From Pseudomonadota bacterium (GTDB lineage: Bacteria > Myxococcota_A > UBA796 > GCA-2862545), in the NCBI GenBank assembly GCA_023954855.1, contig JAGSGY010000011.1, positions 1-64,000 on the forward strand: DNA of 64,000 nucleotides, in the 5' to 3' direction. How positions within the stretch are numbered: position 1 is the stretch's first letter; the number at the start of each line of letters is the position of its first letter. The translations under genes and the position numbers were made by a program. Positions 4,015 to 29,455 of the stretch are shown here, piece after piece. The notes under the pieces were generated by a model, which searched no databases, was not told where the DNA came from, and saw nothing but the letters and a program-made list of their open reading frames with translations.

Positions 4015-4129
4015 AGCGGTCTCCGGGGAGTCGAATCCAGCTCGGTTTATGGCGGATGCATGCATGAGACGCAAGCGTCCGCGCCCTCGAGAGGGAGTAT
4101 TTGGCATCCCTTTCGCAAATGCAGCGATC

Positions 4130-4519: not shown

Positions 4520-4668
4520 TGCGGCTCCGAAGTTGCGACCCAGACCGCTCGACTGAGTAGGCAGACGCCGCCCGCGGCGAACCACCAGCTGGACTGGGAC
4601 AGTGCAATCACCACAAGTCCGACAGCGGAAATGCTGAGCAGTGCGGTGCGGATTGCTGGACGGGTCAT
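4504..4668 (-). CDS. Small membrane protein (54 aa), putative
   Basis: This short frame encodes a basic N-terminus (MTRPAIR) and one or two hydrophobic stretches (LLSISAVGLVVIAL and WWFAAGGVCLLSRAVWV), consistent with a tiny inner-membrane protein. Upstream at 4680-4690 is AAGGAGGTGAT, a full complement to the 16S rRNA 3' end, although its distance to the ATG (11 bases from its end) is long. It overlaps the start of the next gene by 16 bases. It could instead be leader sequence carrying a strong Shine-Dalgarno site. No homologue is known to me. Confidence 0.5.
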   Translation of the reverse strand: MTRPAIRTALLSISAVGLVVIALSQSSWWFAAGGVCLLSRAVWVATSEPQCPSY

Positions 4669-4738
4669 GCCGTCCGGGTATCACCTCCTTGAAGCTTCGG
4701 CAGTGGTCGCATCGGTCGTGGTGACTAGACTTGCGAAC

Positions 4739-6415
4739 ATGTCTGACTCGATTCGCGATTTCGTGCGCCTCGGCGCGTCCTTTTTCGCCCTTCCGTTTGC
4801 TGCGGTGGGGGGATTTCTGCACCGGCGGTTGACGGGGGACGTGGCCATCTTGCAGCTGCGCGTCACTGCGAAGCCTTCGCTGATCGAGCGCAGAGAGCTG
4901 ATTCACCGGCTCGGTCGTGCGCAAGCTGACGAGCAGGTGGCGGCGGTGGTGTTCATGTTCGACACCGGGCTGGGCGGCTGGGCGGCGAATCAAGACCTTC
5001 GCAGCGCGATTCGCTCGCTGTCGGTATCGGGTACCCGGACGTACGCCTTCTTGGAGTCGGCGTCGAATGCGACCATGTATCTGGCATCTGCCTGCGACCG
5101 GGTCGTACTCGTGCCAACTGGCGAGGTCGCCCTCCTCGGTGCGGGCACCGAACTGACCTTCTTCGGAACACTGCTCAATCGGCTTGGGGTCCAGCCCGAT
5201 TTCGAGGCCGCTGGCGAGTACAAGTCCTTCGGTGAGCCATTCACCCGAGCGTACGCCTCACCCGCGAATCGCGAAGCGACCCAGGCGCTCATCGAAGACC
5301 TCCACGCTCAGCTTGCGGATGGGGTGGCCGATGGACGCGGGCTCGAGAGATCTGAGGTGGATGCACTCATTGAGCGTGCACCGCTTTCGGCCTCGGACGC
5401 GCTCGAGGCTCACCTTGTCGATGATCTGCTCTACGCAGACGAACTTCTCTCATGGCTAAAGGGCGTGCATGGTCAGCGGTGCAACCTTCAGCCCTTCGGG
5501 TCCTGGGCGCGCCGAGATGCAGCACTCGACCGTATGGAGGGTCTGTCTCGTGGGGGCCGCCGCGTTGCAGTGCTCCACCTCCAGGGGCCGGTAGTGCTCT
5601 CTGAGGAAGTCAGGGGAGATTCGCTCCGTGCACGCACCGTGGTCCCGATCCTTCGGGGACTTCAAGAGAGCGACGACGTCGCGGCCGTGGTTCTCCACAT
5701 CTCCAGCCCTGGTGGAAGCGCCCTCGCGTCGGATCTCATCTGGCGTGAAGTGGACAAACTCGGGCGCGACAAGCCTGTCGTCGCTGTGTTCGAAGATGTC
5801 GCGGCCTCGGGGGGCTACTACCTGGCCGCGCCTGCCGCCGAGATCGTGGCCCGTCCGGGTACGCTCACCGGCTCCATTGGTGTGTTTGGGGGCAAGCTGG
5901 TGGTCGGCGATGGACTGCGCACGTTGGGGGTGAGCACGCAGCCCGTCCTCGCGAGTGAGAGCGCGACGATGTACTCGCCGACGCGACGCTTCACAGATTC
6001 CCAGCGCGAGCGGTTCCGAGCGTCCCTCCAGCGGGTCTACGACGGGTTCGTGGAGCGTGTCGCGGCGGGACGCGGAAAAGGGGTCGGTGAGATCGAGCCG
6101 CACTGCCGCGGCCGGGTCTGGACGGGTCGAGCCGCGCTGGACAATGGACTCGTCGATCGGTTCGGCACGCTGGATGTGGGCATTGAGCGGGCGAGGGCGC
6201 TGGCGTCGCTTGGTTCGTCGGCCCGGGTGGTTCACCTCGATGGTCGACCGCGGCGCCCGCTGCTTCAGAGATTGATCGGGGACCTCGTGCGCCCCACGAT
6301 CGCCCTCGGGCATCTGGAACGGCTTGGTTTTGCGATCTCGGCCCCCATCCAAGCTGTGCTTCTACACCCTGCGGAACCGCTGGCCATGCTCCCTCACGAG
6401 ATTGAGTTCCGCTAG
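4739..6415 (+). CDS. sppA: Signal peptide peptidase SppA-type serine protease
   Basis: The 558-aa product is a tandem-domain SppA, a membrane protease of the Ser/Lys dyad class (MEROPS S49) that degrades cleaved signal peptides. The N-terminal hydrophobic segment (LGASFFALPFAAVGGFL) is the likely anchor. The first domain holds the dyad lysine region GEYKSFGEPFTR. The second carries the nucleophile region HISSPGGSALASDL and ASGGYYLAAPAAEIVA. The ATG at 4739 is chosen; the frame runs open upstream to 3866 but overlaps minus-strand genes there. This is the first of two SppA proteins in the window (see 44942-47362). Confidence 0.9.
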   Translation: MSDSIRDFVRLGASFFALPFAAVGGFLHRRLTGDVAILQLRVTAKPSLIERRELIHRLGRAQADEQVAAVVFMFDTGLGGWAANQDLRSAIRSLSVSGTRTYAFLESASNATMYLASACDRVVLVPTGEVALLGAGTELTFFGTLLNRLGVQPDFEAAGEYKSFGEPFTRAYASPANREATQALIEDLHAQLADGVADGRGLERSEVDALIERAPLSASDALEAHLVDDLLYADELLSWLKGVHGQRCNLQPFGSWARRDAALDRMEGLSRGGRRVAVLHLQGPVVLSEEVRGDSLRARTVVPILRGLQESDDVAAVVLHISSPGGSALASDLIWREVDKLGRDKPVVAVFEDVAASGGYYLAAPAAEIVARPGTLTGSIGVFGGKLVVGDGLRTLGVSTQPVLASESATMYSPTRRFTDSQRERFRASLQRVYDGFVERVAAGRGKGVGEIEPHCRGRVWTGRAALDNGLVDRFGTLDVGIERARALASLGSSARVVHLDGRPRRPLLQRLIGDLVRPTIALGHLERLGFAISAPIQAVLLHPAEPLAMLPHEIEFR

Positions 6416-12966: not shown

Positions 12967-14312
12967 CCCTCGCCGAGCGGGTAGCCTCGCACACCACCCG
13001 AGTGGTGTTGCTATCCGCTGTACTTGTCGCCCTCGGCCTGATCGGCGCCGATACGCTGGGTGGGGGTTGGCAGCTTCGCCTCGTCGGGCTTGCGATTGCC
13101 GCAGGCGTCGCGCTCGGCCTTGCGCACCTCTCCGCAAGAGACGCAGCGCTGCCCGGACTCAAACGCCTGCACGCAGTGGCGAAACAGACCGAGTCGATTG
13201 CGCAGCGCGATGCCCTCGACGAGCGGCTGGTCGAGATTGGTGAGCCCGAAGTGTCTCGGGTCTCCCGTGCAGTGAACGAGCTTCTCGAGCGGGTTCGGAC
13301 TGAGCGCGAGACGCTCGCCGCCGAGTCTTCACGCTCGCGTTCGATGGCGGATGCGTCCCCCAACGGTGTGCTCGTCGTCGGTACATCCGGCGAGATCAAC
13401 TACCTGAACGCAGCCTTTGTGAGCACCTTCGGACTCGAGGGCGAGGCCATGGGCCGCCGCCCCCTCGAAGTCGTCGATGTCGTGGCGGTGCAGCGACTCA
13501 TCGATGCTGTCGTGGAGAGCGGGGAGAGCGCCGAGGTTCCGGCGCAGGCAGGGGACCGGGAGCTTGCATTGCTTGGTGTGCCCCTAAGCGGCGGCGCGAT
13601 GGTGATCTGTCAAGACGTGACGCGTTTCCGGCGCGCCGAACAGGCCCGCACCGACTTCGTGACCAACGTCTCCCACGAGCTGCGCACGCCGATTGCCACC
13701 ATCATGGGCTACGCCGAGACCTTGCAGGGCGATGACCTTCCACCCGGCTCGGACCGCCTCGTCGCCGCCATCGTTCGCAATGGCCGTCGCCTCTCCGACC
13801 TCTTCGAGGACCTGCTCGAGCTATCGCGCATCGAGGCGCGGCGTCGCGAGCTGCCGGTGGCGCGCAGAAAGCTGCAGTCGCTGGTGCAGGAGGCGGTGGC
13901 GATGGCTGCCGAGCAAGCGGCGAACAAGGGCCAGGCCTTCTCGCTGACCTGCCCACCCGACGTTGTGGCGCGGGTGAACCCCGAGGCGTTGGTCGCGGTG
14001 ATCAGCAATCTCGCGCTCAATGCTTGCAACTACACCCCCGAAGGTGGCCACATCGAGGTTGTGGTGAGTCAGGAAGAGGATGCCGCAGTCGTTCGCGTGA
14101 GCGATGACGGCATCGGCATCGAACGAGCGCAGCAAGCCCGAATCTTCGAGCGATTCTACCGGGTCGATAGTGGCCGAAGCCGCAACGTGGGCGGCACGGG
14201 CCTAGGCCTTGCCATCGTGAAGCACCTCTGCAAGGCGTCGGGTGCCGAGGTCTCACTCGAGAGTGTGCCCGGCGAAGGAAGCACGTTTACGGTGCGCTTC
14301 CCTACCGCCTAG
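12963..14312 (+). CDS. PhoR-like membrane sensor histidine kinase
   Basis: The 449-aa product has two N-terminal membrane helices (roughly 14-33 and 38-55) and almost no periplasmic loop. A linker and PAS domain (SMADASPNGVLVVGTSGEINYLN...) follow, then HisKA with phospho-His in FVTNVSHELRTPIATIMGY, and a HATPase domain with N box (NLALNACNYTPEGG), G1 (VSDDGIGIE) and G2 (GGTGLGLAIVKHL). It presumably phosphorylates the response regulator encoded immediately upstream, with which it overlaps. The gene ends tail-to-tail with the helicase gene in a shared CTAG. Confidence 0.93.
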   Translation: MTLAERVASHTTRVVLLSAVLVALGLIGADTLGGGWQLRLVGLAIAAGVALGLAHLSARDAALPGLKRLHAVAKQTESIAQRDALDERLVEIGEPEVSRVSRAVNELLERVRTERETLAAESSRSRSMADASPNGVLVVGTSGEINYLNAAFVSTFGLEGEAMGRRPLEVVDVVAVQRLIDAVVESGESAEVPAQAGDRELALLGVPLSGGAMVICQDVTRFRRAEQARTDFVTNVSHELRTPIATIMGYAETLQGDDLPPGSDRLVAAIVRNGRRLSDLFEDLLELSRIEARRRELPVARRKLQSLVQEAVAMAAEQAANKGQAFSLTCPPDVVARVNPEALVAVISNLALNACNYTPEGGHIEVVVSQEEDAAVVRVSDDGIGIERAQQARIFERFYRVDSGRSRNVGGTGLGLAIVKHLCKASGAEVSLESVPGEGSTFTVRFPTA

Positions 14313-16375
14313 CCGACGACCATCACTTCGTCGCGGGCGACCGTCTTCGAGAGCTTGTGCAGGCGCTCGTCCATGTCGGGAAAGTCGGAGTACACGTCGC
14401 GGAGCTGACCGACGAGGTCCTTGGCGCGCCGGAAGGTGCTGATCAGGTCGCCGGCGACGTCGGTGTCACTGGCCACGAGCAGCTGGACTTCCGAGAAGCT
14501 TCGGCCATTGGCCCAGGCGCGGCCGAGAGCGATGAGGTCGGGGCCCCAGCTACTTGCGATTCCGGTGATCTCATCCGCCGAGGTCACGATCTCGGAGGTG
14601 AGCACCTTGAGCACTCGGGCGTGAATGCTCCGGTCCTCACGGGTGACGCGGAAGTTCGGGGTCGCCGCGCGCGGCAGCTCCGACACGAGCGCACAGCACA
14701 CACCGAACAGGGTGGGGGACTCGAGCTCGTCCCAGATTCCCGCAAGCACGAGCTCAGTGATCAAGATCTCGCTCATCTGCAGGTTGCGAACGACCTTGGC
14801 GCCCGCGTTGAAGCCGAGGTTCTCGTCGAGGTAGCCCACGCGCTGCAAGAACTTCACGCGGTGCTGGAACTCACGCCAGACCTGCCCGTCTTCGAGTTCG
14901 GCCTGCTTGCGCAGCCGCCGCGCCTGCTTCTTCTGCTTGGCGTTTCGCGAGCCATCGAGCCCCTCGGCCCGGGTGAGCTTCTGTGCGGAGCTCCGACGCA
15001 GGTGCCAAGAGAGGAAGCTGCGCTCGACGACCTCGCGGATGCGCTCCATCGAGAGGCGCTCCAGCAGGCTGACGACCGAGTTCCACGACAGGTTGAAGCT
15101 CGAGTGGACGGCCTCGTAGTCGCCTTTGCGGTACTGCTCCAGGTTGCCCTTGATCTCGTCGTAGTCGCCCACGTCGACGCGCACGAGCACGTGTCCCTGG
15201 TCATCCAGTCCCCGGCGTCCAGCGCGACCGGCCTTCTGCATGAATCCACGCGTAGGGAGGGGACGCATTGCGGTGCCGTCGAACTTGACGATGCCGTCGA
15301 AAATCACCGAACGGGCGGGCATGTTGATGCCGAGCGCGAAGGTCGAAGTGCAGTACAGCACGCGGACGAGGTGGTTCTCGTAGAGCTCCTCGACCAGGGA
15401 CTTGAGCTGCACATGGAGACCGGCATGGTGGAAGGCGATGCCTTTCTCGAGCATGTCGATGAAGTCTTGATCGAGGGTCTCGCCGAGCTCGGCGCGGGCA
15501 GTGTGGAGGCGCTCGCGGAGGCGTTGCTGGGCCTCGCGGTCCAACATCGAGCTGTGCATCCAGTTCGATAGGCCCCGCGCAAAGCGTTCCGTGTCTCTGC
15601 GTGAGAAGACGAAGTACAGCGCCGGCAGCAGGTCGTTCTTCTGTGCCATGCGCACGAGGTCGACATCGCGCGTGCGGCGAGGGGGGCGGCGGGAGCGGCT
15701 GCGTCCTCTGCCTCGGCCGCTGCTGGCTTCGCTCAAGATCTGACGACCCTTGCGCTTGAAGAACGAGGCGTACTGATCGGGCGTCAGGATGCCGCAGTCC
15801 TTCGAGGCGTAGTGAATCTCGAGGGGCACGATGCGCTCGAAGGCCCGCACAACCTCAACGGGGCTTCCGCGAACCTCGGTCAGCCAGTCGGCGAAAGTCT
15901 CCAGGTTCGATAGCGTGGCCGACAGCCCGACAATCTGGACCGACGGTGGCAGGTAGATGAGAACTTCTTCCCAGACCGTGCCGCGCTCGCGGTCGTCGAG
16001 AAAGTGAATCTCGTCGAGGATGACCGCCTTCAGGTCCGAGAGGTCTTCGCCGGACAGCAGCATGTTGCGCAGGATCTCGGTCGTCATCACTCGACACGGA
16101 GCATCGCGACGAATGACGAGGTCGCCGGTGACGAGGCCCACTGCGCTCTCGCCGTAAAGGCGGGTGTAGTCGCGGTACTTCTGGTTCGAGAGGGCCTTGA
16201 CGGGTGCGGTGTAGACGACCCGCCGGTTCTCTTCGAGCGACTTCTCGACAATCCAGTCGGCGACCAGCGTCTTGCCGTTTCCGGTGGGGGCGGAGACCAG
16301 CACGCTTCGGCCCTCTTCGAGGTGCTTGATAGCGGTGGCTTGGAATGGGTCGAGAGTGAGGCCGCGGTACTGCAT
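14309..16375 (-). CDS. Ski2/Mtr4-like DEAD/DEAH-box RNA helicase
   Basis: The product carries helicase motifs I (SAPTGNGKT), Ia (YTAPVKALSNQKY), II (DEIH), III (LSATLSN), V (TSTFALGINMPARSVIF) and VI (QKAGRAGRRG). A C-terminal region resembles the helical DSHCT part of Ski2/Mtr4/HelY enzymes. These unwind structured RNA with ATP and in some lineages feed exonucleases; the bacterial partner is not evident here. An Arg-rich low-complexity insert (SSGRGRGRSRSRRPPRR) sits between the two RecA-like domains. The ATG at 16375 (688 aa, MQYRGLTLDPFQ) is chosen; in-frame starts at 16414 and 16441 would add 13 or 22 residues. Confidence 0.9.
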   Translation of the reverse strand: MQYRGLTLDPFQATAIKHLEEGRSVLVSAPTGNGKTLVADWIVEKSLEENRRVVYTAPVKALSNQKYRDYTRLYGESAVGLVTGDLVIRRDAPCRVMTTEILRNMLLSGEDLSDLKAVILDEIHFLDDRERGTVWEEVLIYLPPSVQIVGLSATLSNLETFADWLTEVRGSPVEVVRAFERIVPLEIHYASKDCGILTPDQYASFFKRKGRQILSEASSGRGRGRSRSRRPPRRTRDVDLVRMAQKNDLLPALYFVFSRRDTERFARGLSNWMHSSMLDREAQQRLRERLHTARAELGETLDQDFIDMLEKGIAFHHAGLHVQLKSLVEELYENHLVRVLYCTSTFALGINMPARSVIFDGIVKFDGTAMRPLPTRGFMQKAGRAGRRGLDDQGHVLVRVDVGDYDEIKGNLEQYRKGDYEAVHSSFNLSWNSVVSLLERLSMERIREVVERSFLSWHLRRSSAQKLTRAEGLDGSRNAKQKKQARRLRKQAELEDGQVWREFQHRVKFLQRVGYLDENLGFNAGAKVVRNLQMSEILITELVLAGIWDELESPTLFGVCCALVSELPRAATPNFRVTREDRSIHARVLKVLTSEIVTSADEITGIASSWGPDLIALGRAWANGRSFSEVQLLVASDTDVAGDLISTFRRAKDLVGQLRDVYSDFPDMDERLHKLSKTVARDEVMVVG

Positions 16376-16457
16376 GCCGCCTTGTACCCTCGGAAAGCGG
16401 CTTCGGCGATGCATCGGGGGCGGAATGCATGCCGATGACATCGCATTTTCCGGCCTG

Positions 16458-17069
16458 TCAGGCGGTGTGGGTCTCGCCCGAGATGAGGACGGGGAGGTCG
16501 GCTGTCGCCATCACGTCGACCAGCGACCGGCGCAGGGCCTCGCTGCGCAGCTTGTTGGCGGCCAGCGCTACGCGGCCACCTTCCCGGATCCCTACTTGGT
16601 CGAGGACCAGACGCACCAACACCTTCCCGGACTCGAGGCTCAGGCGAATCTCCCACTCGTCTTCAGAGCCGTTGGTTTGTCCGTGAGCCACCGCAGACAG
16701 CTCGGTCCAGGCAAAGCTACGCTCGGCGCGCGCCTCAGGCCAGTGCGTCACGGTCCAGGACGACCAGCTGACCTGGTCCGCCGGGCCGGTGTCGACGAAG
16801 GCATCGGGCGTCCCCTCTGGCTCGAGCACGAGGGTCACACCCGCCTCGCTAAACGAGGCGTGAGCCCAGCGAAGCTCCGGGGCGCTGCCGAACCAAACCA
16901 GTGCGCTCGAGACGCACGCGGCGAAGACCCCCAGCCACAAGCCGAATGGCGACGTGACCCACAATACGAGGCCGCAGACGCCAACGGACAGGGCCGCCAT
17001 CCCAGGGCGTCTCCACCTTGGGCTCGGGTCACACCGAAACCTCAATAGCGCTGGAGGTAAGGGGGTCAT
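16458..17069 (-). CDS. Hypothetical membrane protein, two helices
   Basis: The ~203-aa product has two adjacent hydrophobic segments near the N-terminus (AALSVGVCGLVLWVTSPFGLW and LGVFAACVSSALVWFG), followed by a soluble ~140-aa tail rich in beta strands, with regular Trp residues (VSWSSWTVTHW). I recognise no family. The start is taken at ATG 17069; a GTG at 17084 is possible. It lies 82 bases upstream of the helicase gene on the same strand and is divergent from the barrel/ECF/caspase cluster. Confidence 0.6.
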   Translation of the reverse strand: MTPLPPALLRFRCDPSPRWRRPGMAALSVGVCGLVLWVTSPFGLWLGVFAACVSSALVWFGSAPELRWAHASFSEAGVTLVLEPEGTPDAFVDTGPADQVSWSSWTVTHWPEARAERSFAWTELSAVAHGQTNGSEDEWEIRLSLESGKVLVRLVLDQVGIREGGRVALAANKLRSEALRRSLVDVMATADLPVLISGETHTA

Positions 17070-17168
17070 AGCTGAGGCTAGCACTCGGTTCGCAGAATTC
17101 TCTCAGTTTCTCGTGACATCCGTGGCGGTCGTGCCTCTTGTCTTGTGAACCCCTGACGCGAGGACCCC

Positions 17169-17795
17169 ATGCTCACACTTCTCCTTCTGTTTGGAGCTGC
17201 CGAGGCAGCGCCGAAACTGACGCTGTCCGGAGGCATGCGAACGACCGTCAGTGCGTTTAGCGAGGGTCGACTCGACAGGGTGGGCCTCGGAGTGGGTGGC
17301 CAGTCCCGCATTCAGATTGGCGATAGGGTCGGGACCGAGTGGTTCTTGGACTACATCTCCACGGACCTCGAGGGTGGCGCCCACCGCGTCGACGACCACA
17401 TCGGCTGGTCAGTGATGTTCTATCCGCTGCCCACCGACGGGTTCACCAAGCCGGTCCTGCCCTATGTCCTCGCGGGGCATTGCTTCGACTACACCGTGAT
17501 CTCGATTCCCGGCGCCGGTCACATCCATCCCGGGGAGACCTCTCCCGCGGAAGCGACCCGGGCCAGCCGCCTCTCGAGTGCGGTCCAGTTTGGCGTGGGC
17601 ACGCACTTCAACCTGACCGAGCGCTTCGATATCTCTCCGACGGCCCAGTACATGATTCACCTGGGCAATGACCTTCACTACGACCCGAAGGGGCATGGCC
17701 ACGCGGAGCAGAGTCGAGCGGGTGCCCTCGAAGGACACCTGCTCTTCAATGTGAGCGTCAACTACCGCTTCAAGATGCCGGGGGTGCGGTCATGA
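17169..17795 (+). CDS. Outer-membrane beta-barrel protein (cluster gene 1)
   Basis: The 208-aa product has a short hydrophobic signal (MLTLLLLFGAAEAAP) and then alternating amphipathic strands (KLTLSGGMRTTVSAF, LSSAVQFGVGTHFNL, FDISPTAQYMIHL, HLLFNVSVNYRFKM), typical of an eight-strand-type outer-membrane barrel. It contains several His residues (GHIHPGE; HYDPKGHGHAE) in apparent loops, which might bind metal; this is speculative. GAGGACCCC precedes the ATG. It overlaps the next gene by ATGA and is the likely first gene of the cluster that includes the ECF sigma and caspase genes. Confidence 0.75.
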   Translation: MLTLLLLFGAAEAAPKLTLSGGMRTTVSAFSEGRLDRVGLGVGGQSRIQIGDRVGTEWFLDYISTDLEGGAHRVDDHIGWSVMFYPLPTDGFTKPVLPYVLAGHCFDYTVISIPGAGHIHPGETSPAEATRASRLSSAVQFGVGTHFNLTERFDISPTAQYMIHLGNDLHYDPKGHGHAEQSRAGALEGHLLFNVSVNYRFKMPGVRS

Positions 17796-18298
17796 CCGAG
17801 TTCCTGCCTATCCTCACGACGATGGCGACCCTCTCCCTCGGCTGGTCGAACAACGCCGCAGAGCAGAACCTGTACGTGCACGGCAGTAGTGACCTGTATG
17901 TGTCGGAGAGAGTGTCTCTGCGTGGAGACGCGTACTGGTTCGCCGGAGAACAGCACCAACAGCGGCGCATCATCGATAACCACAGCGTTCTTGCCGGCGC
18001 TGCCTTCCACTTCGGCAAGGGGCGCTTCGATCCGTTCGTGGCGATGCAGCCCGGTGTGTCCTTCACCCGCTCTGAGTTCCGCGTGGATGGCGAGCGAACG
18101 CCCAGCAACTGGAAGGTCACGCCCGTAGCCTCCGCAACGATGGGGGCCCGGTACTTCGTGAGCCCGAACTTCCACTTCTTCACCGAGCTTCGCCAGATGG
18201 CCGGCACCCACCTCTCGGATGACCCACGCACCATCGGCCTCGCCGAGACGCGCGTGTCGTTTGGATTGGGCGCTCAGCTCGGTAGAACGGGGCGGTGA
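17792..18298 (+). CDS. Outer-membrane beta-barrel protein (cluster gene 2)
   Basis: The 168-aa product consists of amphipathic strands (LYVHGSSDLYVSERVSLRGDAYWF, VLAGAAFHFGKGRFDPFVAMQPGVSF, VTPVASATMGARYFVSP, RVSFGLGAQLGRTGR) like the previous gene, which suggests a related small barrel. Its signal peptide is weak (MTEFLPILTTMATLSLGWS). The start overlaps the upstream stop (ATGA). The ECF sigma gene follows after only 43 bases, so the pair probably shares transcription with it. Confidence 0.7.
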   Translation: MTEFLPILTTMATLSLGWSNNAAEQNLYVHGSSDLYVSERVSLRGDAYWFAGEQHQQRRIIDNHSVLAGAAFHFGKGRFDPFVAMQPGVSFTRSEFRVDGERTPSNWKVTPVASATMGARYFVSPNFHFFTELRQMAGTHLSDDPRTIGLAETRVSFGLGAQLGRTGR

Positions 18299-18341
18299 GT
18301 GGTCTTCGTTTCCGGTACGCTCATGGTCAGGAGGGCGCTCG

Positions 18342-18905
18342 CTGAGCCAAGCCACCGCCGTATCCATCGACCTCCGCGCGGCTCAGTCGGGCGACAGGGC
18401 TGCGTGTCAGCGCCTCTACGAGACGCATGTGGCCGCGGTCTTTGGCTTCTGTGTGCGCTTCTGCGAGGGGGACCGAGGCCGGGCGAGCGACTTGGCTCAA
18501 GAGGCTTTCGCGACCGCTTGGACCCACCTGTCCGACGTGCGCGAGCCCGAGCGGTTCTCGGGCTGGTTGATGACCATCACGCGCCGTACCTGCCTGCAGT
18601 CCGTTGCCCGCGACCGACGCGAGAAGCGGGCGCTCATCGACCTTCACGCAGAGCCGAGACCTCCCACAAGGTCCGTCAACCGGGCAGCTTCGATTGTGGC
18701 CGAGGTCATCGCCGCGTGCCCAGATGCCGCGTTGCGCGAGGTGGCTTCGCTGTTCTACATCGAGCCCGGCCATGAGACGCTCGCCATCGCCGAGAGGCTG
18801 GGCGTGAGCCGCTCGGTGGTCACCACCCGCCTGTACCGCTTCCGCATCTGGGCAAAAACGCGCATGCTGGGGCGGCTGACCGAAGCACTCGAGGAGACGC
18901 TGTGA
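18342..18905 (+). CDS. ECF-type RNA polymerase sigma factor, probable CTG start
   Basis: The product (187 aa) has sigma region 2 (LYETHVAAVFGFCVRF ... ASDLAQEAFATAWTHLSDV, FSGWLMTITRRTC) and region 4 (HETLAIAERLGVSRSVVTTRL), the core of an extracytoplasmic-function sigma factor. No ATG, GTG or TTG gives a sensible N-terminus: the nearest upstream ATG (18219) lies deep in the barrel gene. A CTG at 18342 has AGGAGGG 6 bases upstream, so it is taken as the start. The anti-sigma gene overlaps the stop (GTGA). Predicted role: activates its own cluster when released by the anti-sigma. Confidence 0.82.
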   Translation: MSQATAVSIDLRAAQSGDRAACQRLYETHVAAVFGFCVRFCEGDRGRASDLAQEAFATAWTHLSDVREPERFSGWLMTITRRTCLQSVARDRREKRALIDLHAEPRPPTRSVNRAASIVAEVIAACPDAALREVASLFYIEPGHETLAIAERLGVSRSVVTTRLYRFRIWAKTRMLGRLTEALEETL

Positions 18906-19657
18906 GTCACATCTCCCCAAAGCAGATCGACGACGCGCTCGCTGGTGATGTGGGCGCCCTGAGCGTGGTCGTTGCGCATGTCGAGGGGGGCTGTGAGCCT
19001 TGTGAGTCACTGCTCGACGGCGTCGACCTCGACACGCTCGCACTTCTGGTCGCCGCCTCGGAGGCACCCCCCGTCGAACCGACGGCCGCCGAGTCCGCGC
19101 AGATTCGACCGGACTTTGGGGCCGCAGCGTTCCGGCCGACGCGGTGGTTGGCCCCCGTGCTGCTGGTTGCGGTGGCCCTGTTTGCAGTGGTTCAGCTGGC
19201 CGTACCGCCTGCGAGTGTCGACGGCATCAAGGGCAGTGAGGTGGCACGTCCCGACGTCGCTGTGCAGGTGCTTGTCGGCGTCGCCAGTGCCGCGGGCTTC
19301 AAGCTGGAGCGGCGTCTTGAAGCCAACGGGGAACTCTCTCGGGACGCGACCCTGCTGTTCGAGCTGGACACCAAGACCGCCTCGGCACGGTATCTGTTCG
19401 TCCTCGACGGGGAGGGGGAGGCCACGCTGCTGTTTCCGGGCGACGCGGCGGCCGTCGAGGGTCCAGGGCCTCGTCGTGTGGGCGTGGGGGAGGACTGGGT
19501 CGCGTTCGCACTTGACGACTGGGCGGGACCGATCACCGTTGTCGCGGCGGCCTCACAGCAGCCGCACCCCGCAGCGGACGTGATCGAGGCCTATGCCTCT
19601 CGACGTGCGACGCCGGGCATTGGCTTCGCAGACGTGTCTGCGGTGGTGGTGCCATGA
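18902..19657 (+). CDS. Putative zinc-finger anti-sigma factor with periplasmic domain
   Basis: The 251-aa product begins with a short cytoplasmic helical domain holding HVEGGCEPC (His26, Cys31, Cys34), close to the HxxxCxxC of ZAS anti-sigma factors though with one extra residue. A membrane helix follows (WLAPVLLVAVALFAVVQLAV). The ~150-aa periplasmic part (LLFELDTKTASARYLFVLD, GEATLLFPGD) resembles DUF4384-type beta domains often found near bacterial caspases. It likely holds the upstream ECF sigma at the membrane. It overlaps both neighbours, GTGA before and ATGA after. Confidence 0.78.
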   Translation: MSHISPKQIDDALAGDVGALSVVVAHVEGGCEPCESLLDGVDLDTLALLVAASEAPPVEPTAAESAQIRPDFGAAAFRPTRWLAPVLLVAVALFAVVQLAVPPASVDGIKGSEVARPDVAVQVLVGVASAAGFKLERRLEANGELSRDATLLFELDTKTASARYLFVLDGEGEATLLFPGDAAAVEGPGPRRVGVGEDWVAFALDDWAGPITVVAAASQQPHPAADVIEAYASRRATPGIGFADVSAVVVP

Positions 19658-21174
19658 TTCTCGCCGCGCTCACCCTGTTCGCTCTGGCCGGTCCCACCGT
19701 GATCTCAGCGGACCAGGTCGATGAACAGCAGGCTGAGGCGCTGCTTCGGGGACGGCGACTCGCGCTGGTCGTCGGCCCGAGCAGCTTCACAGAGGGTTTT
19801 GCACCGCTTCGCTTCACTGATGACGACGCGTCTGCACTGGGTGAGGTGCTCGCGGACCCCGCGCATGGGCAGTTCGATGAGGTGTGGTCGCTCACCTCGC
19901 CAGGCGACACGACCTTGGCCTCGACACGGTCGGCCATGCGTGCGCTTGGCGAACAGTCCACGTCCCCGGATGACACGGTGGTCGTCTACTTCTCGACCCA
20001 CGGCACTCTCGAGGGCACACCGAGGCAGCTCAGCCAGTACCTCGTGCTCTCGGACACGGCGATCGACGACGTCGCTCGTACGGCACTTCCGCATGATGAA
20101 GTCCTGCTCTGGCTCGATGCGCTGCCGTCGAGAAGAAAGGTACTCGTCCTCGCAACTTGTCACTCTGGTCAGGGGAAGTCGGCCTTCTCGCCCGGCGTGC
20201 GTGCGCTTGCTGACAGCACAAAAGGGGCGCTCGTCACTCCGCTTCGCGATGTCTCGGAAGCGACCGTTATTATCGGCGTCTGCGCCTTCGACGAAACAGC
20301 GCGCGAGTCCGAACAGCTCGGCCACGACATCTACACGGCCTTCTTCCTGGACGCGCTTCGAGACGGCGACGCCAATGGGGACGGCGCGGTGACGATCACC
20401 GAGGCCCACAGCGCTGCACGCGAGCAGACCTGGGCGTTCACCGAGGGCACCCAGCGGCCATACGCCCGGGCAGAGATCTTGGGCGAAGACCCGATTGTGC
20501 TCACCGGCGAGCGTGTACGCGCTGGCAAGCCCTCGCTCGGCTCTTACCTGTCCGAGTATGTAGGCTATTCGGTCTTCGTAGACGGTCAGTCGAAGGGGGT
20601 GTTGCCGGGCGAGGTGACGCTCGACGAGGGCAATCACCTAGTTGAGGTGCAGGCGCCGGGACGTCGCGGCTTTGTCGCGAGACAGCGGGTTCGACTGCGT
20701 GCGGGCACGAGGACCGATCTCAATACCCTGGTTCGTCAGGACACGGTGCGCTTCGCGTTTGGCGGCGGTGGGCAGTGGTTCAGCGAGCCGATGCGCTCGG
20801 CACCGGTCGGACGCGGAGAGCTGCATGTGCCGTGGCTTCCCGGCCGTGGCTGGGAACTCATTGCGTCGGGGAGTGCGAGTGCGCGGTGGCCGAACCCGAC
20901 GCTCGATGGGGCGATTGTCGTGGAGCGTGCTCTCACCCCCGGGCCCTGGGAGTTTCGCCTCGGAGCGGGCGTGCATGGCTATCTGATCGGCGCAGAGGGG
21001 CTCCTCGCACCGTCGGTGGTGCCTGAACCCGTTGCGGCGGTGGTGTTCTTGCCTCGGCAGCCGCTCGTGATGCGCTTGTCAGCGAGCGGCAGCTACCTGT
21101 GGTTCACCGACGCCGGTGCCTGGAACCACGGGTGGACCGCGCGGGTTGGTCTGGTGGCCGGAGGAGCCTTCTAG
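19654..21174 (+). CDS. Exported caspase-family (C14) peptidase with EF-hand and barrel-like C-terminus
   Basis: The 506-aa product has a signal peptide and a p20-like caspase domain with catalytic His116 (YFSTHG) and Cys169 (LATCHSGQ). A perfect EF-hand loop spans residues 239-250 (DANGDGAVTITE), suggesting Ca2+ control as in type-I-like metacaspases. Residues ~290-345 resemble a PEGA-type domain (SVFVDGQSKGVLPGEVTLDEG). The last ~150 residues alternate in barrel-like strands ending in Phe (VGLVAGGAF), consistent with outer-membrane insertion. It is coupled to the anti-sigma gene by ATGA. Substrate unknown; a proteolytic stress or self-damage role is inferred from the family. Confidence 0.85.
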   Translation: MILAALTLFALAGPTVISADQVDEQQAEALLRGRRLALVVGPSSFTEGFAPLRFTDDDASALGEVLADPAHGQFDEVWSLTSPGDTTLASTRSAMRALGEQSTSPDDTVVVYFSTHGTLEGTPRQLSQYLVLSDTAIDDVARTALPHDEVLLWLDALPSRRKVLVLATCHSGQGKSAFSPGVRALADSTKGALVTPLRDVSEATVIIGVCAFDETARESEQLGHDIYTAFFLDALRDGDANGDGAVTITEAHSAAREQTWAFTEGTQRPYARAEILGEDPIVLTGERVRAGKPSLGSYLSEYVGYSVFVDGQSKGVLPGEVTLDEGNHLVEVQAPGRRGFVARQRVRLRAGTRTDLNTLVRQDTVRFAFGGGGQWFSEPMRSAPVGRGELHVPWLPGRGWELIASGSASARWPNPTLDGAIVVERALTPGPWEFRLGAGVHGYLIGAEGLLAPSVVPEPVAAVVFLPRQPLVMRLSASGSYLWFTDAGAWNHGWTARVGLVAGGAF

Positions 21175-23678
21175 CGCGGCATTTGAGTACGCCTCAAGAG
21201 CGGCTTGGTCAGCTCGAGGGTGAGGAAGAGGATGGCGGCGAGGCCAAGAATGGGGGCCCACACCCAGGCCGGCAGCGGCACGAGGTGGAGCAGGGTGCCC
21301 AAGGGTGAGTAGACCAGGATCACGTGCAGCACGAGCACGGCGGCGCTGGCGGCGACGAGCCACGGACTCGACCGGAGCGGGCGGGTCCACGTGGGGGCGT
21401 GGGTGCGGACCGAGAAGGCGAGGGCGAGCTCGAGCACCACAGCGAAGGTGAGCGTGGCGGTGCGAGCCAGTGGCAGGTCCTCGGTGGCGTTCAGTACGCC
21501 CAGGTAGATTGCCAGGGCACCGGCGAAGCTAATCAGTGTCGCCACCACGAGACCGGGCCCTTCGCCTGCCAGCAGGTGCTCGTCGGGCGGACGGGGGGGC
21601 CGCTCCATGATGTCGGGCTCTGCAGGCTCGGCGGTGAGTGCGAGCGCAGGCAAGCCATCCGTGAGTAGGTTGATCCACAGGATGTGCACCGGCAGGTAGG
21701 GGATGGGCAGCGCGAGCGCGAAGGTGACGATGACCAGCAGCAGTTCGTCGAAGTTGGCGCGGAGCAGGAACAGGGTGAAGCGTCGGATGTTGTCGTGACT
21801 CCGACGGCCCTCGGCAATGGCGCCGACGAGCGTGGCGTAGTGGTCGTCCGCGAGGACAATCGACGCGGCCTCTCGAGCGACATCCGTTCCTCGACCACCC
21901 ATGGCGACGCCGACGTGAGCGGTCTTCAGCGCAGGAGCGTCGTTCACGCCGTCACCGGTCATCGCGACCACTGCTCCGCCGCGCTGCAGGGCGCTGCAGA
22001 GCTGAACTTTGTGCTCCGGCGAGACCCGGGCGAAGACGGAACGCGACGCAACCCAGCGCTCGATCTCAGCGTCATCGCAACCGTCGAGCTGGCGTCCTTC
22101 GGCGACGGTGGGCTCGATGCCCACGCGCTCGGCGATAGCTTTGGCGGTTCCTTGGTGGTCTCCGGTAATCATCACGGTGCGGACCCCGGCCGAACGGGCG
22201 CTCGCCACGGCGCCGCTTACACCCTCTCGTGGTGGGTCCTCGAGGCCAAATAAGCCCACGATCTGGGGGGTGGCGTTTGGCTCGGCGACCGCAGCGGCGA
22301 GTACCCGGCGGCCCCGCGAGGCCATTGCATCCACGCGCTCGCGAACGGAACCATCGTCGCCGGTGAGCTCGAGGAGCCGCTCTGGAGCGCCCTTGTAGAA
22401 GGTGCGTCCCGCGTGGGTCGTCGCCATGTACTTCACGGCGGAGGAGAAGGGGACGGGCTCGCTGTCGATGGCGAGGCGCTTGGCCTTCTGCTCTTCCGCG
22501 AATCGCAGCAGGGCCGTCTCGGTGGGGGCGCCGTGAGAACCATCCGATGCGCGATTGCAGCTCGCTCCGACCTGCGCGAGCACTCTCGCGTCCGCAGCCC
22601 AGTGCTCCACGACGGTCATGCGGTTCTCGGTGAGCGTGCCGGTCTTGTCGGTGCACAGGACCGATACCGATCCAAGGGTCTCGAGCGCGTCTAGACGCCG
22701 AACGAGAGCGCCTTGCTGGGCCATGTGGCGGGCGCCGACCGCGAAGCACACCGTGACCACGGCCGGCAGTCCCTCCGGAACCATCGACACGCCCAAGCTT
22801 ACGGCCACCAGCAGAAGCTCCCCGGTGGGCATGCCTCTCAGAGTGCCTACGACCATGATGATGACTACGGCAACCGCAGCCACGATGGCGAGCAAGCGGG
22901 CGAGGCGCTGGAGCTGGAGTTCAAGTGGGGTCGGCGGCGGCTCGGCACTCTGCAGGAGCCCAGCGAGATGTCCCACCTCGGTGTGCCGGCCAATCGCGGT
23001 GACGACAGCCTGGCACGATCCAGCCGTGACGAGCGTCCCGGCAAAGACCATGCTCTTCTGGTCCGCGACGGCCGCATCGGCTGGGACCGCGTCGGCCTGT
23101 TTCGGGACCGGGAGCGACTCTCCGGTCAGCGCTGACTCGTCGACGCGAAGCCCAGAATGGGTGGTGACGCGTGCATCGGTGGGGATGCGGTCTCCCGCGG
23201 AGAGGACGAGGACGTCGCCGCGGACGACTTCGGTTGCGGGTACCTCCGTGGCGGTACCTTCGCGGAGCACGTTGGCTCGTGGGGCCGCGAAGCTCGCGAG
23301 CTGGGCGATGGCCTTCTCGGCGCGGGCCTCCTGGAACACGCCGAGGGCGGTGTTCATCACCAAAATGCCGGCAATCACAATGGCGTCCACGAAGTCCGAG
23401 AGCCCGAGCGCATGCTCAGCCTCGAGGACGGGCAAGGCGATGGACAGCACCAACGCGAAGGCAAGGATCCAGACGAAGATGCTCTTCAGCTGCTTCACAA
23501 CGAGTGCGAAAGGGCTTCGCTTTGACTCGGGGAGCGCGTTCTCTCCCTCCGCGGCCAGCCTTCGGGCGGCTTCGGCTTGGCTGAGACCGTCCTCCTGGCT
23601 CTGCTGCGTGGCCCACACCTGATCGGTGGACTGTGCATGGGGCGGCAGGACGGCCATGGCACTCGCGTCGGACGCCAT
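21171..23678 (-). CDS. Cation-transporting P-type ATPase, Ca2+ (SERCA/PMCA) type
   Basis: The 835-aa product is a type II P-ATPase: actuator TGES, phosphorylation motif DKTGTLT, nucleotide-domain KGAPE, hinge MTGDGVNDAPAL, and about ten membrane helices. Metal-site residues match Ca2+ pumps: PEGLP in M4, the N-x-x-E pattern in M5 (RANFDELLLV) and NLLTDGLPAL in M6. It probably exports Ca2+ or a similar divalent ion. It is convergent with the EF-hand caspase gene, the two stops interlocking in CTAG. An internal ATG at 23657 is an alternative start. Confidence 0.92.
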   Translation of the reverse strand: MASDASAMAVLPPHAQSTDQVWATQQSQEDGLSQAEAARRLAAEGENALPESKRSPFALVVKQLKSIFVWILAFALVLSIALPVLEAEHALGLSDFVDAIVIAGILVMNTALGVFQEARAEKAIAQLASFAAPRANVLREGTATEVPATEVVRGDVLVLSAGDRIPTDARVTTHSGLRVDESALTGESLPVPKQADAVPADAAVADQKSMVFAGTLVTAGSCQAVVTAIGRHTEVGHLAGLLQSAEPPPTPLELQLQRLARLLAIVAAVAVVIIMVVGTLRGMPTGELLLVAVSLGVSMVPEGLPAVVTVCFAVGARHMAQQGALVRRLDALETLGSVSVLCTDKTGTLTENRMTVVEHWAADARVLAQVGASCNRASDGSHGAPTETALLRFAEEQKAKRLAIDSEPVPFSSAVKYMATTHAGRTFYKGAPERLLELTGDDGSVRERVDAMASRGRRVLAAAVAEPNATPQIVGLFGLEDPPREGVSGAVASARSAGVRTVMITGDHQGTAKAIAERVGIEPTVAEGRQLDGCDDAEIERWVASRSVFARVSPEHKVQLCSALQRGGAVVAMTGDGVNDAPALKTAHVGVAMGGRGTDVAREAASIVLADDHYATLVGAIAEGRRSHDNIRRFTLFLLRANFDELLLVIVTFALALPIPYLPVHILWINLLTDGLPALALTAEPAEPDIMERPPRPPDEHLLAGEGPGLVVATLISFAGALAIYLGVLNATEDLPLARTATLTFAVVLELALAFSVRTHAPTWTRPLRSSPWLVAASAAVLVLHVILVYSPLGTLLHLVPLPAWVWAPILGLAAILFLTLELTKPLLRRTQMPR

Positions 23679-25900: not shown

Positions 25901-26785
25901 AACTGGGACGACTTTCGCTATGTGCTCGCACTGGCGCGCGGGGGCACTTTGACCCGGGCCGCGTCGTCCCTCGGTGTGCACTACACCTCGGTGGCACGGC
26001 GAATCGCCCAGGCCGAAGCGTCACTCGGAACACAGCTCTTTCATCATGGACGGCGGGACCACGTCCTGACCGAGGCGGGAGAGGAACTCGTTAGGGTCGC
26101 AGAGAGGATGGAGGACGAGGTCTTCGCTCTCGACCGGGAGTTGTTGGGTAAGGATGCGACGCTCTCGGGCACGCTTCGTGTTGGGATGGTGGGTTCGATG
26201 GCCCGGGCCTTGGGCGCGGATCTCGCCGAATTCGCCGACAATCATCCCGACATCGACCTGCAGCTCACGTGTGGATTGACCATGCACAGCCTGACCCGAC
26301 GCGAGGCTGATGTCGCTGTTCGGGCGTCGGCCTCTCCGGGTGACCAGCTGGTTGGGCGCCGGGTGAGCGCGATTCAGCTGGCTCCGTATGCTCACAAGGC
26401 CCTGGTCGCCCGCATGGAGGGGCGTCCATGGTCGGAGTGGCCTTGGGTCCGCATGGAGGACCGGGTCGGCGGAACGATGGGCAAGGAATGGCTCGACGCG
26501 CATGCACCCGGGTGGTCAGGCCCGTTCTTACTCGACGACTGGGATGTCATGGAGCACCACATCGCGACAGGCGTGCTTGCTGGAATGAGTGCCACCGGCA
26601 TGGAGAGGGTGTTTCCCGACCTCGTCAGGCTCGCGGATCCGATGCCGTTCAGCATGAGTCTCTGGGTCCTCACTCATCCCGACCTACGGCACACCGCAAG
26701 AGTGCGGGCGTTCATGCGGTTCATCTCGGGGCGGCTCAAACGGCTCTTCGATGAGCCCGGCGACACCACTTCCTCCGAGCCGTGA
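25898..26785 (+). CDS. LysR-family transcriptional regulator
   Basis: The 295-aa product has an N-terminal winged helix (FRYVLALARGGTLTRAASSLGVHYTSVARRIAQAEASLG) and a periplasmic-binding-protein-like effector domain starting near LSGTLRVGMVGS. The ATG at 25898 gives the normal LysR N-terminus (MNWDDFRYVLAL). It is divergent from the SRPBCC/DUF4336-like pair, the classic layout for a regulator of its neighbours; the inducer is unknown. Confidence 0.93.
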   Translation: MNWDDFRYVLALARGGTLTRAASSLGVHYTSVARRIAQAEASLGTQLFHHGRRDHVLTEAGEELVRVAERMEDEVFALDRELLGKDATLSGTLRVGMVGSMARALGADLAEFADNHPDIDLQLTCGLTMHSLTRREADVAVRASASPGDQLVGRRVSAIQLAPYAHKALVARMEGRPWSEWPWVRMEDRVGGTMGKEWLDAHAPGWSGPFLLDDWDVMEHHIATGVLAGMSATGMERVFPDLVRLADPMPFSMSLWVLTHPDLRHTARVRAFMRFISGRLKRLFDEPGDTTSSEP

Positions 26786-26849
26786 CAGGGCAACGAGAAA
26801 ATCGACGTGGCGTGTGCAACCTTTGCGACGCTGTCCCGTGTCACCTGCC

Positions 26850-27386
26850 ATGAATCAACCCGCACCGCTCTCGACGGATGTTCTCGCGCTTGCCCGCGAT
26901 GGGGACAAGTCTGCCCGGTCAGCTCTCCTAGAGCGGTACGGCCCGGTGGTGTGGAGCATGGCGCGTCGGCTCACCCCGGAGCCCGAGGATGCGTACCAAG
27001 AGGTGTGGCTCAAGGTGTTCGCGGCGCTGCACCGTTTCGACCCGTACGGGTCGGCCTCCTTCTCGACCTGGGTGGCGACGGTGGCCCATCGGCACCTCAT
27101 TGACCGGTACCGCAAGACCGAGACCCGCGGGGTGGTTGTGTCCCTGGACCGACTCGGAACCGCGGAGTCCCAGGCGGATGCGCACCTCGATCAGCGCCGC
27201 CGACTCGTTCGGACCGAGGAAGCACTGCGCACCCTACCGGCCCATGCGAGGCGGGTGGTGATCGCGCACTGCCTCCATGGCGTCGCGCTCAAGGACATTG
27301 CCGCGGATGAGGGTGTGGCGGTCGGAACCATCAAGGCGCGGCTCCATCGCGCGCGGGCAGAACTTGTCGAGAAGGTGGGACGATGA
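26850..27386 (+). CDS. ECF-type RNA polymerase sigma factor
   Basis: The 178-aa product has sigma region 2 (LLERYGPVVWSMARRL ... PEDAYQEVWLKVFAALHRF, FSTWVATVAHRHLIDRYRK) and region 4 (LKDIAADEGVAVGTIKARLHRAR). The ATG at 26850 matches the family length; the frame extends upstream to 26751 into the LysR gene. A possible ECF-type promoter (TGCAACC at 26815-26821 and CGTGTC at 26837-26842) precedes it and might be autoregulated, but its start point would fall almost at the ATG, so this is weak. The next gene overlaps the stop (ATGA) and probably encodes its inhibitor. Confidence 0.9.
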   Translation: MNQPAPLSTDVLALARDGDKSARSALLERYGPVVWSMARRLTPEPEDAYQEVWLKVFAALHRFDPYGSASFSTWVATVAHRHLIDRYRKTETRGVVVSLDRLGTAESQADAHLDQRRRLVRTEEALRTLPAHARRVVIAHCLHGVALKDIAADEGVAVGTIKARLHRARAELVEKVGR

Positions 27387-29455
27387 CCGAGCTCGAACAA
27401 CTCTGGGCCCTCCGAGATGGCGATCTGCCTGAAGCTGAGGCTGCGAGGCTTCGCGACCGGCTCGCGACGGAGCCTGAACTCCAGGCGCTGTGGGCGCGAG
27501 TCGACCAACTCGCCCTCGATCTGCCTGAACTCCCTCTCGATGCGCCGCCGGCTGGACTGAATGCCGCGCTTGTCGACCAAGAGCCCCCTGCGCCCTCGGC
27601 CAGTGTCGACAGTGGGGTCCGGTCTGGGCGGTGGCGCGTCATCGGTGGGATGGTTGTGCTCGCGGGTGCGGCGGCTGCGAGCTCGCTGCTCACGCAGTGG
27701 TGGATGGCTCCGCTCGACGCGCCCTTGGGACCCACCATGGAAGAGCCGGTGGCCACCGTGCCGGTGGAGGTCGAGCCCGAGGTCGAGCTCAGTCCACCCG
27801 AGGACCGCCCATCGGTCGCGGCTCCACGCGAGGTGGATCTGCTCGACACTGGAATGGCTCCAGGGGACGCGATGCCGGGCAGGCCAACCAGGCAAGCACC
27901 CGCTCCCGCTCCGGTGGCCGCCTACGAGGGGCTCCCGCAGGAGTTTGGAACCGCATTGGTCGGCATCGTGGGGCATGCACTCGGCCCGGATGCAACCGGA
28001 GAGCGTGGCTACTGGGTCGTCGGAAACCCGCTGCCGACTCACGCAATGATTGGCGGAGACACAGTGTGCGGCACGGAGGCAGAGCTGCTCGAGTCGCGAC
28101 GCGGCGGGCTCTCCACAGCTGTGCGCGGCTGTCTTGCTGGCGTGGCGGCCTCAGACGCGGTGGGGGCACGCCGGGCGAGCTTCTGGCTCCTCGGTGACCT
28201 CTCCGGAACGCCGAAGTGGGAGGCCGCTGCGGTGCGGCACCTCGAGCGCTGGGACGAGCAAGTGCTGGCTGCGTCGCTTGCCCACGCGCGGATGCAGAGG
28301 GGTGAGCCCGACTTCACGCATTACGCGTCGCTAGCCTTTCCCTACAAGGGACGCAGCAGGGCGAGCAAGCGCGCAACGACTGCGCTCTATGCGGGCTGGC
28401 GCGAGGCGGAGTGGCGGCAGGATGGTGGCCGGATTGCCTGGCACGAGGCGGTGGATGCGGCGGGCTTGTGGCGTGTGACGGACAGCGCCGGAGCGGGTCA
28501 GCAGGCGCTCTGGGGCGAGCTCGTGGCAGCGACGCCGCCGCCGAGTGGCTGCGAGCAGGGCATGGCGGGTGACCTCGAAACCCGTGCGAACTGCTGGCTT
28601 CGGGTTGTCGAGGATGACGCGTACCCCGCTTCGCTGCGGTCCTGGGCGGCTCCCCAAGTTGTGGTGGTGTTTTCAGGCCAAGGCGACAGCGATCGGCAGC
28701 TTCGCGCCCTGCGGGGGCATCTCGACGCGGACCCACTGAACGCGGACGTGCACCTCGAACTCGCGCAGCTTCTCGCCGAACGTCAGGCGTTCCCCGAAGC
28801 CCTCGCCATGCTGGAGCAGGCCGAGGTTCTCGCCGACCCCACGGCCGAGACGCGCATGCTTCGGCGTCGGCTCGAAGACACCGTCTCGGGCGCCCCATCG
28901 ACGGCCTTGACCCCGGCGGGACCCGCATCGGTCGAGGTCTGTTCGGATCTGCGAGCCCTTGAACCGGCAGCCATGATGGGCCGTCTCAACACTTCGCAGC
29001 GTGCCTGTCTTGCGGCGAGGGCCGAGGACGCAGCGGATCCCGAGCGTCGCCGAGTCGCTCTGGTGATCCTTCAGAACCTCTGGAGTCGTGGCGACCGAGC
29101 CGAGTGGACCGAAGCGGCACAGCTCGAGCTCAAGCGCACATGGGACCTCGACATCGCGTATCGCCTTGCGGTTCTTCTGCATCGTGACGGGGGGCAGGAT
29201 CCAGAGGTCGTGGCGTTGACCGAGCGAGTACTCGTGGACGGCCTGCGATGGGAGGGCCAGACCCGGACCACTCGACTCGCCAAGACCCACAAGACCCGAG
29301 TCGCGGCGCTTCGTCGGCTGTCGCTCACCGATGCGAGTGTGGTGTCCGAGCTGCAGCGGTCGGCTGAAGACTGGCACGCCTACGCCGAGAAGACTGGAAT
29401 GGACCTAGACGCAGCGCTGGCCGCCTGTCTCGAAGCGGGTGGGAGCTGCCGCTAG
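27383..29455 (+). CDS. Membrane-anchored anti-sigma-like protein with large TPR-like periplasmic domain
   Basis: The 690-aa product has an N-terminal cytoplasmic helical region (ELEQLWALRDGDLPEAEAARLRDRLATEPELQALW-like composition) that resembles anti-sigma domains without zinc ligands. One membrane helix follows (VIGGMVVLAGAAAASSLL), then a Pro/Glu-rich linker and a ~500-aa periplasmic domain with TPR-like helices (LNADVHLELAQLLAERQAFPEAL). Coupling to the ECF gene (ATGA) supports an anti-sigma role; the envelope signal it senses is unknown. Confidence 0.72.
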   Translation: MTELEQLWALRDGDLPEAEAARLRDRLATEPELQALWARVDQLALDLPELPLDAPPAGLNAALVDQEPPAPSASVDSGVRSGRWRVIGGMVVLAGAAAASSLLTQWWMAPLDAPLGPTMEEPVATVPVEVEPEVELSPPEDRPSVAAPREVDLLDTGMAPGDAMPGRPTRQAPAPAPVAAYEGLPQEFGTALVGIVGHALGPDATGERGYWVVGNPLPTHAMIGGDTVCGTEAELLESRRGGLSTAVRGCLAGVAASDAVGARRASFWLLGDLSGTPKWEAAAVRHLERWDEQVLAASLAHARMQRGEPDFTHYASLAFPYKGRSRASKRATTALYAGWREAEWRQDGGRIAWHEAVDAAGLWRVTDSAGAGQQALWGELVAATPPPSGCEQGMAGDLETRANCWLRVVEDDAYPASLRSWAAPQVVVVFSGQGDSDRQLRALRGHLDADPLNADVHLELAQLLAERQAFPEALAMLEQAEVLADPTAETRMLRRRLEDTVSGAPSTALTPAGPASVEVCSDLRALEPAAMMGRLNTSQRACLAARAEDAADPERRRVALVILQNLWSRGDRAEWTEAAQLELKRTWDLDIAYRLAVLLHRDGGQDPEVVALTERVLVDGLRWEGQTRTTRLAKTHKTRVAALRRLSLTDASVVSELQRSAEDWHAYAEKTGMDLDAALAACLEAGGSCR

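Follow-up and report, generated by a model that had tools for sequence, protein, structure and literature searches.

We analysed a run of five co-directional genes, here called A, B, S, R and C, in a 64,000-nucleotide stretch of contig JAGSGY010000011.1 (assembly GCA_023954855.1; hereafter the window) from a bacterium labelled Pseudomonadota and placed in Myxococcota_A by GTDB. Its core consists of the genes for an extracytoplasmic function (ECF) sigma factor, a single-pass anti-sigma factor, and an exported caspase. Gene A (17169–17795, +) encodes an exported barrel-like protein of ~208 amino acids that falls just short of the Pfam OMP_b-brl cut-off (28.4 bits against 28.7), and gene B (17792–18298, +) encodes a barrel-like protein of 168 amino acids. 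These are followed by the sigma factor gene S (18342–18905, +), the anti-sigma gene R (18902–19657, +), whose product combines a zinc-finger-type cytoplasmic N-terminal domain with an immunoglobulin (Ig)-like periplasmic domain, and the caspase gene C (19654–21174, +), encoding 506 amino acids with a predicted C-terminal outer-membrane barrel. All five were found at the coordinates given by an initial annotation of this DNA, made from the sequence alone, which was also correct in describing a same-strand run with 43 bases before the sigma gene. Its count of four overlapping junctions held for three of the four: A and B (ATGA), S and R (GTGA), and R and C (ATGA) overlap, B and S are separated by the 43-base gap, and the fourth overlap at the locus is that between C and a convergent P-type ATPase gene.

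The product of S contained sigma-70 region 2 (Pfam Sigma70_r2, E 1.2e-14) and scored above the cut-off of the whole-protein ECF model TIGR02937, with region 4 below cut-off (Sigma70_r4_2, E 0.058). No ATG, GTG or TTG start codon for S was found in a sensible range, the nearest upstream in-frame candidates (ATG at 18219 and TTG at 18261) both lying within B. A non-standard CTG start at 18342, the one chosen by the initial annotation, is plausible, positioned 7 nt behind a perfect AGGAGG ribosome-binding site (18329–18334, +) that can be read directly in the sequence.

R carries the motif H-x4-C-x2-C (H26, C31 and C34; 18977–19003, +), whose three residues are invariant in the alignment of 8/8 orthologs. 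Four of the eight R orthologs matched zf-HC2 (best E 3.6e-6), the window R itself being without any Pfam match. On its motif and its position next to an ECF sigma gene, R can be assigned to the zinc-finger (zf-HC2/ZAS) anti-sigma factors. In the structural model, a single membrane helix (residues 83–100; 19148–19201, +), which appears as a hydrophobic run in relatives, is followed by a low-confidence and likely flexible linker (101–112) and an Ig-like beta sandwich (119–250). Fold searches with R returned only general Ig-like matches (best Z 8.4), none of them pointing to a function. The initial description of this periplasmic part as DUF4384-like survives as a sub-threshold similarity in relatives (PF14326; best relative 18.9 bits against a cut-off of 27, E 0.0017), and the window R gave no match to it.

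C matched Peptidase_C14 (Pfam, 47.1 bits against a cut-off of 21.4, E 3.1e-12). In its AlphaFold2 model (mean predicted local distance difference test score, pLDDT, 80), the caspase domain aligned with MALT1 over 210 residues (Z 23.6, root-mean-square deviation 2.6), and on this model we consider the caspase fold secure. The catalytic residues His116 (19999–20001, +) and Cys169 (within ATCHSG; 20158–20160, +) are each invariant in 9/9 orthologs, the proximity of their side chains being implied only by the fold match. Sequence searches against solved structures returned nothing when the alignment was the query and only non-significant matches when the single protein was used, the best being to an EF-hand. 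An EF-hand loop of the canonical 12 residues, DANGDGAVTITE, occupies residues 239–250 (20368–20403, +) between helices 226–237 and 248–262. By pattern, the motif is kept in 56 of 58 caspase relatives, and it makes C a possible candidate for gating by Ca2+. Downstream of it, a PEGA-like domain (20554–20727, +) stays below its Pfam cut-off (E 0.0022, 18.3 bits against 20.8).

The C-terminal part of the model, residues 366–505, forms eight long strands, a predicted outer-membrane beta-barrel (20749–21171, +) ending in the terminal residue Phe506, with Foldseek matches to NspA (1.6e-5), OmpW (4.9e-5), and OmpA (6.5e-5). Outer-membrane proteins often end in such an aromatic residue; the tails of Myxococcaceae caspases, similar in length to that of C and not alignable to it, end in GYRF. 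We predict that C sits in the outer membrane via this barrel. Since both ends of an eight-stranded barrel are periplasmic, the caspase domain would be expected on the periplasmic side. The initial annotation had placed His116, Cys169, and the EF-hand loop exactly as we find them and had also described a barrel-like C-terminus. Its broader proposal, that a caspase at or close to the outer membrane is coupled to an envelope sigma/anti-sigma circuit, is supported. The combination of a conserved EF-hand with a predicted C-terminal eight-stranded outer-membrane barrel in a caspase is new here.

The best NCBIfam match of C was to an EACC1-associated caspase model (NF047832, 89.1 bits against a cut-off of 140), besides a weak PADLOC caspase match and a marginal CHAT match (24.9 bits against 24). 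Taken together with the ECF sigma genes that also occur in EACC2/TRADD-N caspase neighborhoods (PMC8195603), the NCBIfam and PADLOC matches could suggest a cell-death or defense module, in which the caspase would kill and the sigma/anti-sigma pair would control only its expression, as proposed for EACC-type systems. We consider this very improbable here: C stays below the EACC1 cut-off, its operon is without an EACC or nucleoside triphosphatase partner, and the protein is exported and predicted to be barrel-anchored. Assignment of C to the CASP-type (Cas7-11/Csx29/Csx30) TPR-CHAT proteases was rejected on the strength of its C14 match and of the neighbors of the five genes (14309–23678), which are a helicase, a small open reading frame (ORF), and the P-type ATPase.

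The S-R-C arrangement recurs outside the window. An order-level caspase search of 63 genomes yielded eight close relatives of C, 47–58% identical in the alignment. In all seven with upstream sequence, an S ortholog is present, and the S-R-C order is kept with a 4-base overlap (ATGA, GTGA or CTGA) at both junctions. Given that order and overlaps recur in 7/7 intact orthologs, the arrangement is not due to chance. A second clade within the same order of genomes, roughly 30–36% identical, has the S-R-C gene order too, and a scan of named genomes extended it to the Myxococcaceae and relatives (Myxococcus xanthus, Archangium, Corallococcus, and Pyxidicoccus). The exact five-gene set, described as one cluster by the initial annotation, was found in no relative: across 60 genomes of the order, A had a single weak match and B had no sequence relative. 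The conserved core is S, R, and C, with A and B being peculiar to this genome.

A short motif connects R to the caspase. The periplasmic juxtamembrane linker of R contains K110–G111 (19229–19234, +), the predicted site of caspase cleavage. K110 is the sole invariant lysine of R among the eight orthologs, seven of which have Gly at the next position. Across the caspase-linked anti-sigma factors, lysine or arginine followed by glycine ([KR]-G) lies beside the membrane helix in 58 of 61 proteins (30 of 33 at <50% identity), counts that come from the same data in which the motif was noticed. Because of this, a second set was taken, in which a search of four other genomes with the general Pfam caspase model led to 13 anti-sigma factors adjoining both a sigma gene and a caspase, one of them (L180) belonging to the first caspase family. 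KG was present in 12 of these 13 within the 32-residue control window and in 13/13 within 40 residues, the difference being due to L187, whose KG falls just outside the control window. Zinc-finger anti-sigma factors with a membrane helix and no caspase nearby, our controls, had KG or RG in 4 of 27 cases (Fisher P of 3.7e-6 for 12/13 and 2e-7 for 13/13, both calculated on related sequences without phylogenetic correction and for a motif noticed before it was tested). Four caspase-linked anti-sigma factors fell into the control search, two with KG, one with KG farther along a long linker, and one with KS. A looser [KR][GA] pattern gave no separation of cases from controls (7 of 12 controls), and [KR]G was adopted as the pattern for this reason. 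In a second system of the window genome (contig C86), the R site reads TIKG and the caspase loop site TVKG.

The same dipeptide is found in the caspases themselves. K190–G191 of C (20221–20226, +) falls in the loop joining p20 to p10, the classical processing region of caspases, and is a predicted self-processing site. KG is invariant at this place in 9/9 orthologs, with RG in the second clade and KG, KS or KA in Myxococcaceae. Lipoprotein-type caspases have KG at most 26 residues from the lipid-bearing Cys in 24/24 cases, and the M. xanthus sites read SGEKGGL in the caspase and TGEKGRL in the anti-sigma factor. The identity of the putative P1 residue, K or R, agreed between caspase loop and R linker in 33 of 36 systems (26 K/K, 7 R/R, and 3 mismatches, one of which, L067, reflects a wrong site pick, the true linker site being QRIKG). 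This agreement holds where K-type and R-type systems share a genome (L039 and L044 in G030). The conserved [KR]-G beside the R helix, in the caspase loop, and by the lipid anchor is a pattern new here, and its most economical reading is that of a caspase recognition site, orthocaspases being known to cleave after positively charged residues (K/R) (PMC6426788).

Two other explanations of these sites were weighed. The caspase could be an output only, with S freed from R by another signal or protease and inducing C to act on other envelope targets, and with KG as a structural element where the Ig-like domain begins. In favor of this, ECF operons often carry the gene of their effector, C is the last gene, and in many R proteins the first strand follows KG within a few residues. 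We nevertheless consider this account rather unlikely, since a structural need predicts neither the occurrence of the dipeptide at two unrelated places in caspases (the loop and the lipid-anchor linker) nor the concerted change of K and R, which mostly co-vary between loop and linker. Alternatively, some trypsin-like periplasmic protease could cut [KR]G, maturing the caspase and inactivating R, so that a single specificity would explain all three sites and the caspase would be a substrate. This seems quite improbable to us given the constant presence of a caspase from a family of fitting specificity (PMC6426788), whereas no trypsin-like gene was seen travelling with S-R-C in the neighborhoods read, although no systematic search for one was made.

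We therefore favor, as somewhat probable, a protease-gated envelope sigma switch in which C cuts R. At rest, R in the inner membrane would hold S via its zinc-finger-type cytoplasmic domain, and exported C would be anchored in the outer membrane through its eight-stranded barrel, its EF-hand caspase domain turned toward the periplasm. Candidates for the envelope signal would be Ca2+ at the EF-hand or failed barrel assembly leaving C free in the periplasm. Upon this signal, C would self-mature by cutting K190–G191 and, acting as site-1 protease, would cut R at K110–G111 just outside the membrane. Ordinary intramembrane and cytoplasmic proteolysis would then remove the R stump, and the freed S would raise transcription of its own operon. 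The direction of control assumed by the initial annotation, from sigma factor to caspase, is probably reversed: going by the motif evidence, the anti-sigma factor would be under the control of the caspase, beyond any control of the caspase by the sigma factor.

Several observations weigh against such a switch. C is predicted to be in the outer membrane and the R site is at the inner membrane, and with the predicted sites on different membranes, contact between C and R would need release, an unassembled form or close approach. Contact might be achieved by self-cleavage releasing C, or by C not yet inserted in the outer membrane; both are speculation, as is the consequence of the latter that the barrel would act as a sensor of outer-membrane assembly. 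In clade-1 and Myxococcaceae caspases, position Cys-2 is Ala, in place of the S1-pocket Asp of MALT1 and metacaspases. Among the caspase-linked anti-sigma factors, L038 and L085 have KA, L154 has KS, and L054 has none of these, and the four controls with KG or RG carry it by chance. Almost all R/R pairs belong to a single clade, which leaves few independent events behind the K/R matching, and two second-clade systems are mismatched, with R in the loop and K in the linker. The qualifications attached to the P values above count on the same side.

More tentatively, with the considerations for and against nearly in balance, the switch could be extended to a Myxococcota-wide class of barrel-anchored outer-membrane caspases that act as site-1 proteases of their own ECF sigma switches. 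Recognition would be via [KR]-G in their own p20/p10 loop, by their own lipid anchor where present, and in the partner anti-sigma factor, with K or R matched per system even among paralogous systems of one genome. If true, this would represent a caspase-driven envelope-to-transcription signaling pathway. Little is known about what bacterial caspases cleave or what triggers them, and the genomes analysed here point to a particular substrate, a particular bond, and a readout in transcription. S-R-C systems are also present in M. xanthus, which is genetically tractable.

The pairing of sigma factor and caspase is not new, since sigma-70 genes were reported in 2012 in four metacaspase operons of M. 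xanthus DK 1622 and in such operons of Anaeromyxobacter, Haliangium, Sorangium, Ralstonia, and Fibrobacter (PMC3501461), in line with the initial remark that caspase/ECF neighborhoods exist in bacteria. Those M. xanthus operons are probably among the S-R-C systems read here. In the passage of that paper dealing with them, there is no mention of an anti-sigma factor, barrel anchor, EF-hand, shared cleavage motif or mechanism (PMC3501461). Our literature search found no paper uniting caspase, anti-sigma factor, and myxobacteria in one system. To our knowledge, and in the literature searched, this is a known S-R-C pairing with a so far unrecognised, testable mechanism.

The MALT1 paracaspase and plant metacaspases share the caspase fold with C (Z 21–24). 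Both have basic P1 specificity, and C differs from them in its in-domain EF-hand, PEGA-like linker, and predicted outer-membrane barrel. DegS is an inner-membrane serine protease, in contrast to C as a candidate outer-membrane caspase. In the DegS/RseA/sigma-E system, envelope stress leads to a membrane anti-sigma factor being cut by a first and then by further proteases (PMC10028731). A caspase-like protease, Csx29, cuts the CASP-sigma inhibitor Csx30, and the same paper supports a model in which the inhibition is thereby relieved (PMC10028731). The likeness lies in a caspase-like protease and a sigma inhibitor from one locus, the cutting being a prediction in the case of C. Csx29, however, is an RNA-triggered TPR-CHAT protease associated with CRISPR (clustered regularly interspaced short palindromic repeats), whereas C is exported, C14-type, and, by prediction, barrel-anchored.

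Upstream of S, the window differs from its relatives. A and B are barrel-like ORFs but near-orphans, and B is the positional counterpart of a small exported barrel-like protein found before S in relatives; orthology between the two was considered and could not be demonstrated (hhalign E 0.06). In 7/7 close relatives, this protein is accompanied by a small exported protein with a twin-arginine translocation (Tat)-type signal (CPHxxCR), and in all five contigs that are long enough, an amine-oxidase-like flavin adenine dinucleotide (FAD) enzyme and a CrtC/Lipocalin_9 protein are encoded further upstream. The cassette was seen at L036, L038, L039, L040, and L041, and its small Tat protein (CPHxxCR...C) is without a Pfam match. 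The caspase tree nests the window C within the close-relative group (branches 100/100 and 96/95), and a search of the window genome for the cassette yielded partial FAD-domain matches only and nothing for CrtC. Most simply read, the cassette was lost in this lineage, in which A-B takes its place. In the one second-clade locus tested with Pfam (L043), S is preceded by an apolipoprotein N-acyltransferase gene (3343–4908), and similar-looking ORFs lie directly upstream of the sigma gene in most other loci of this clade.

The P-type ATPase gene (21171–23678, −) is present and convergent on the locus, as the initial annotation had it, overlapping C; its best matches are of PMR1/SERCA type, below cut-offs. 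The link to a Ca2+-ATPase drawn there did not extend to the relatives read, in which no such ATPase lies beside S-R-C and the downstream genes differ, and we treat the gene as a neighbor not counted in the system.

In M. xanthus AM003, a caspase (L075, 5869–7548) combines a signal of the lipoprotein type (LAAC) with a barrel-like tail that ends in GYRF. It is possibly both lipid- and barrel-anchored, and its KG lies past the lipid site and ahead of the caspase domain. Elsewhere in the window, another ECF-type sigma ORF (26751–27386, +) has an ATGA overlap with the gene of a 690-amino-acid protein (27383–29455), which has a single membrane helix and matches zf-HC2 very weakly; no adjoining caspase was seen. 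The second sigma/anti-sigma/caspase system of this genome (L143, at about 139–142 kb of contig C86) is very divergent, and just upstream of its sigma gene lies a barrel-like exported ORF of 246 amino acids ending in VGYQF.

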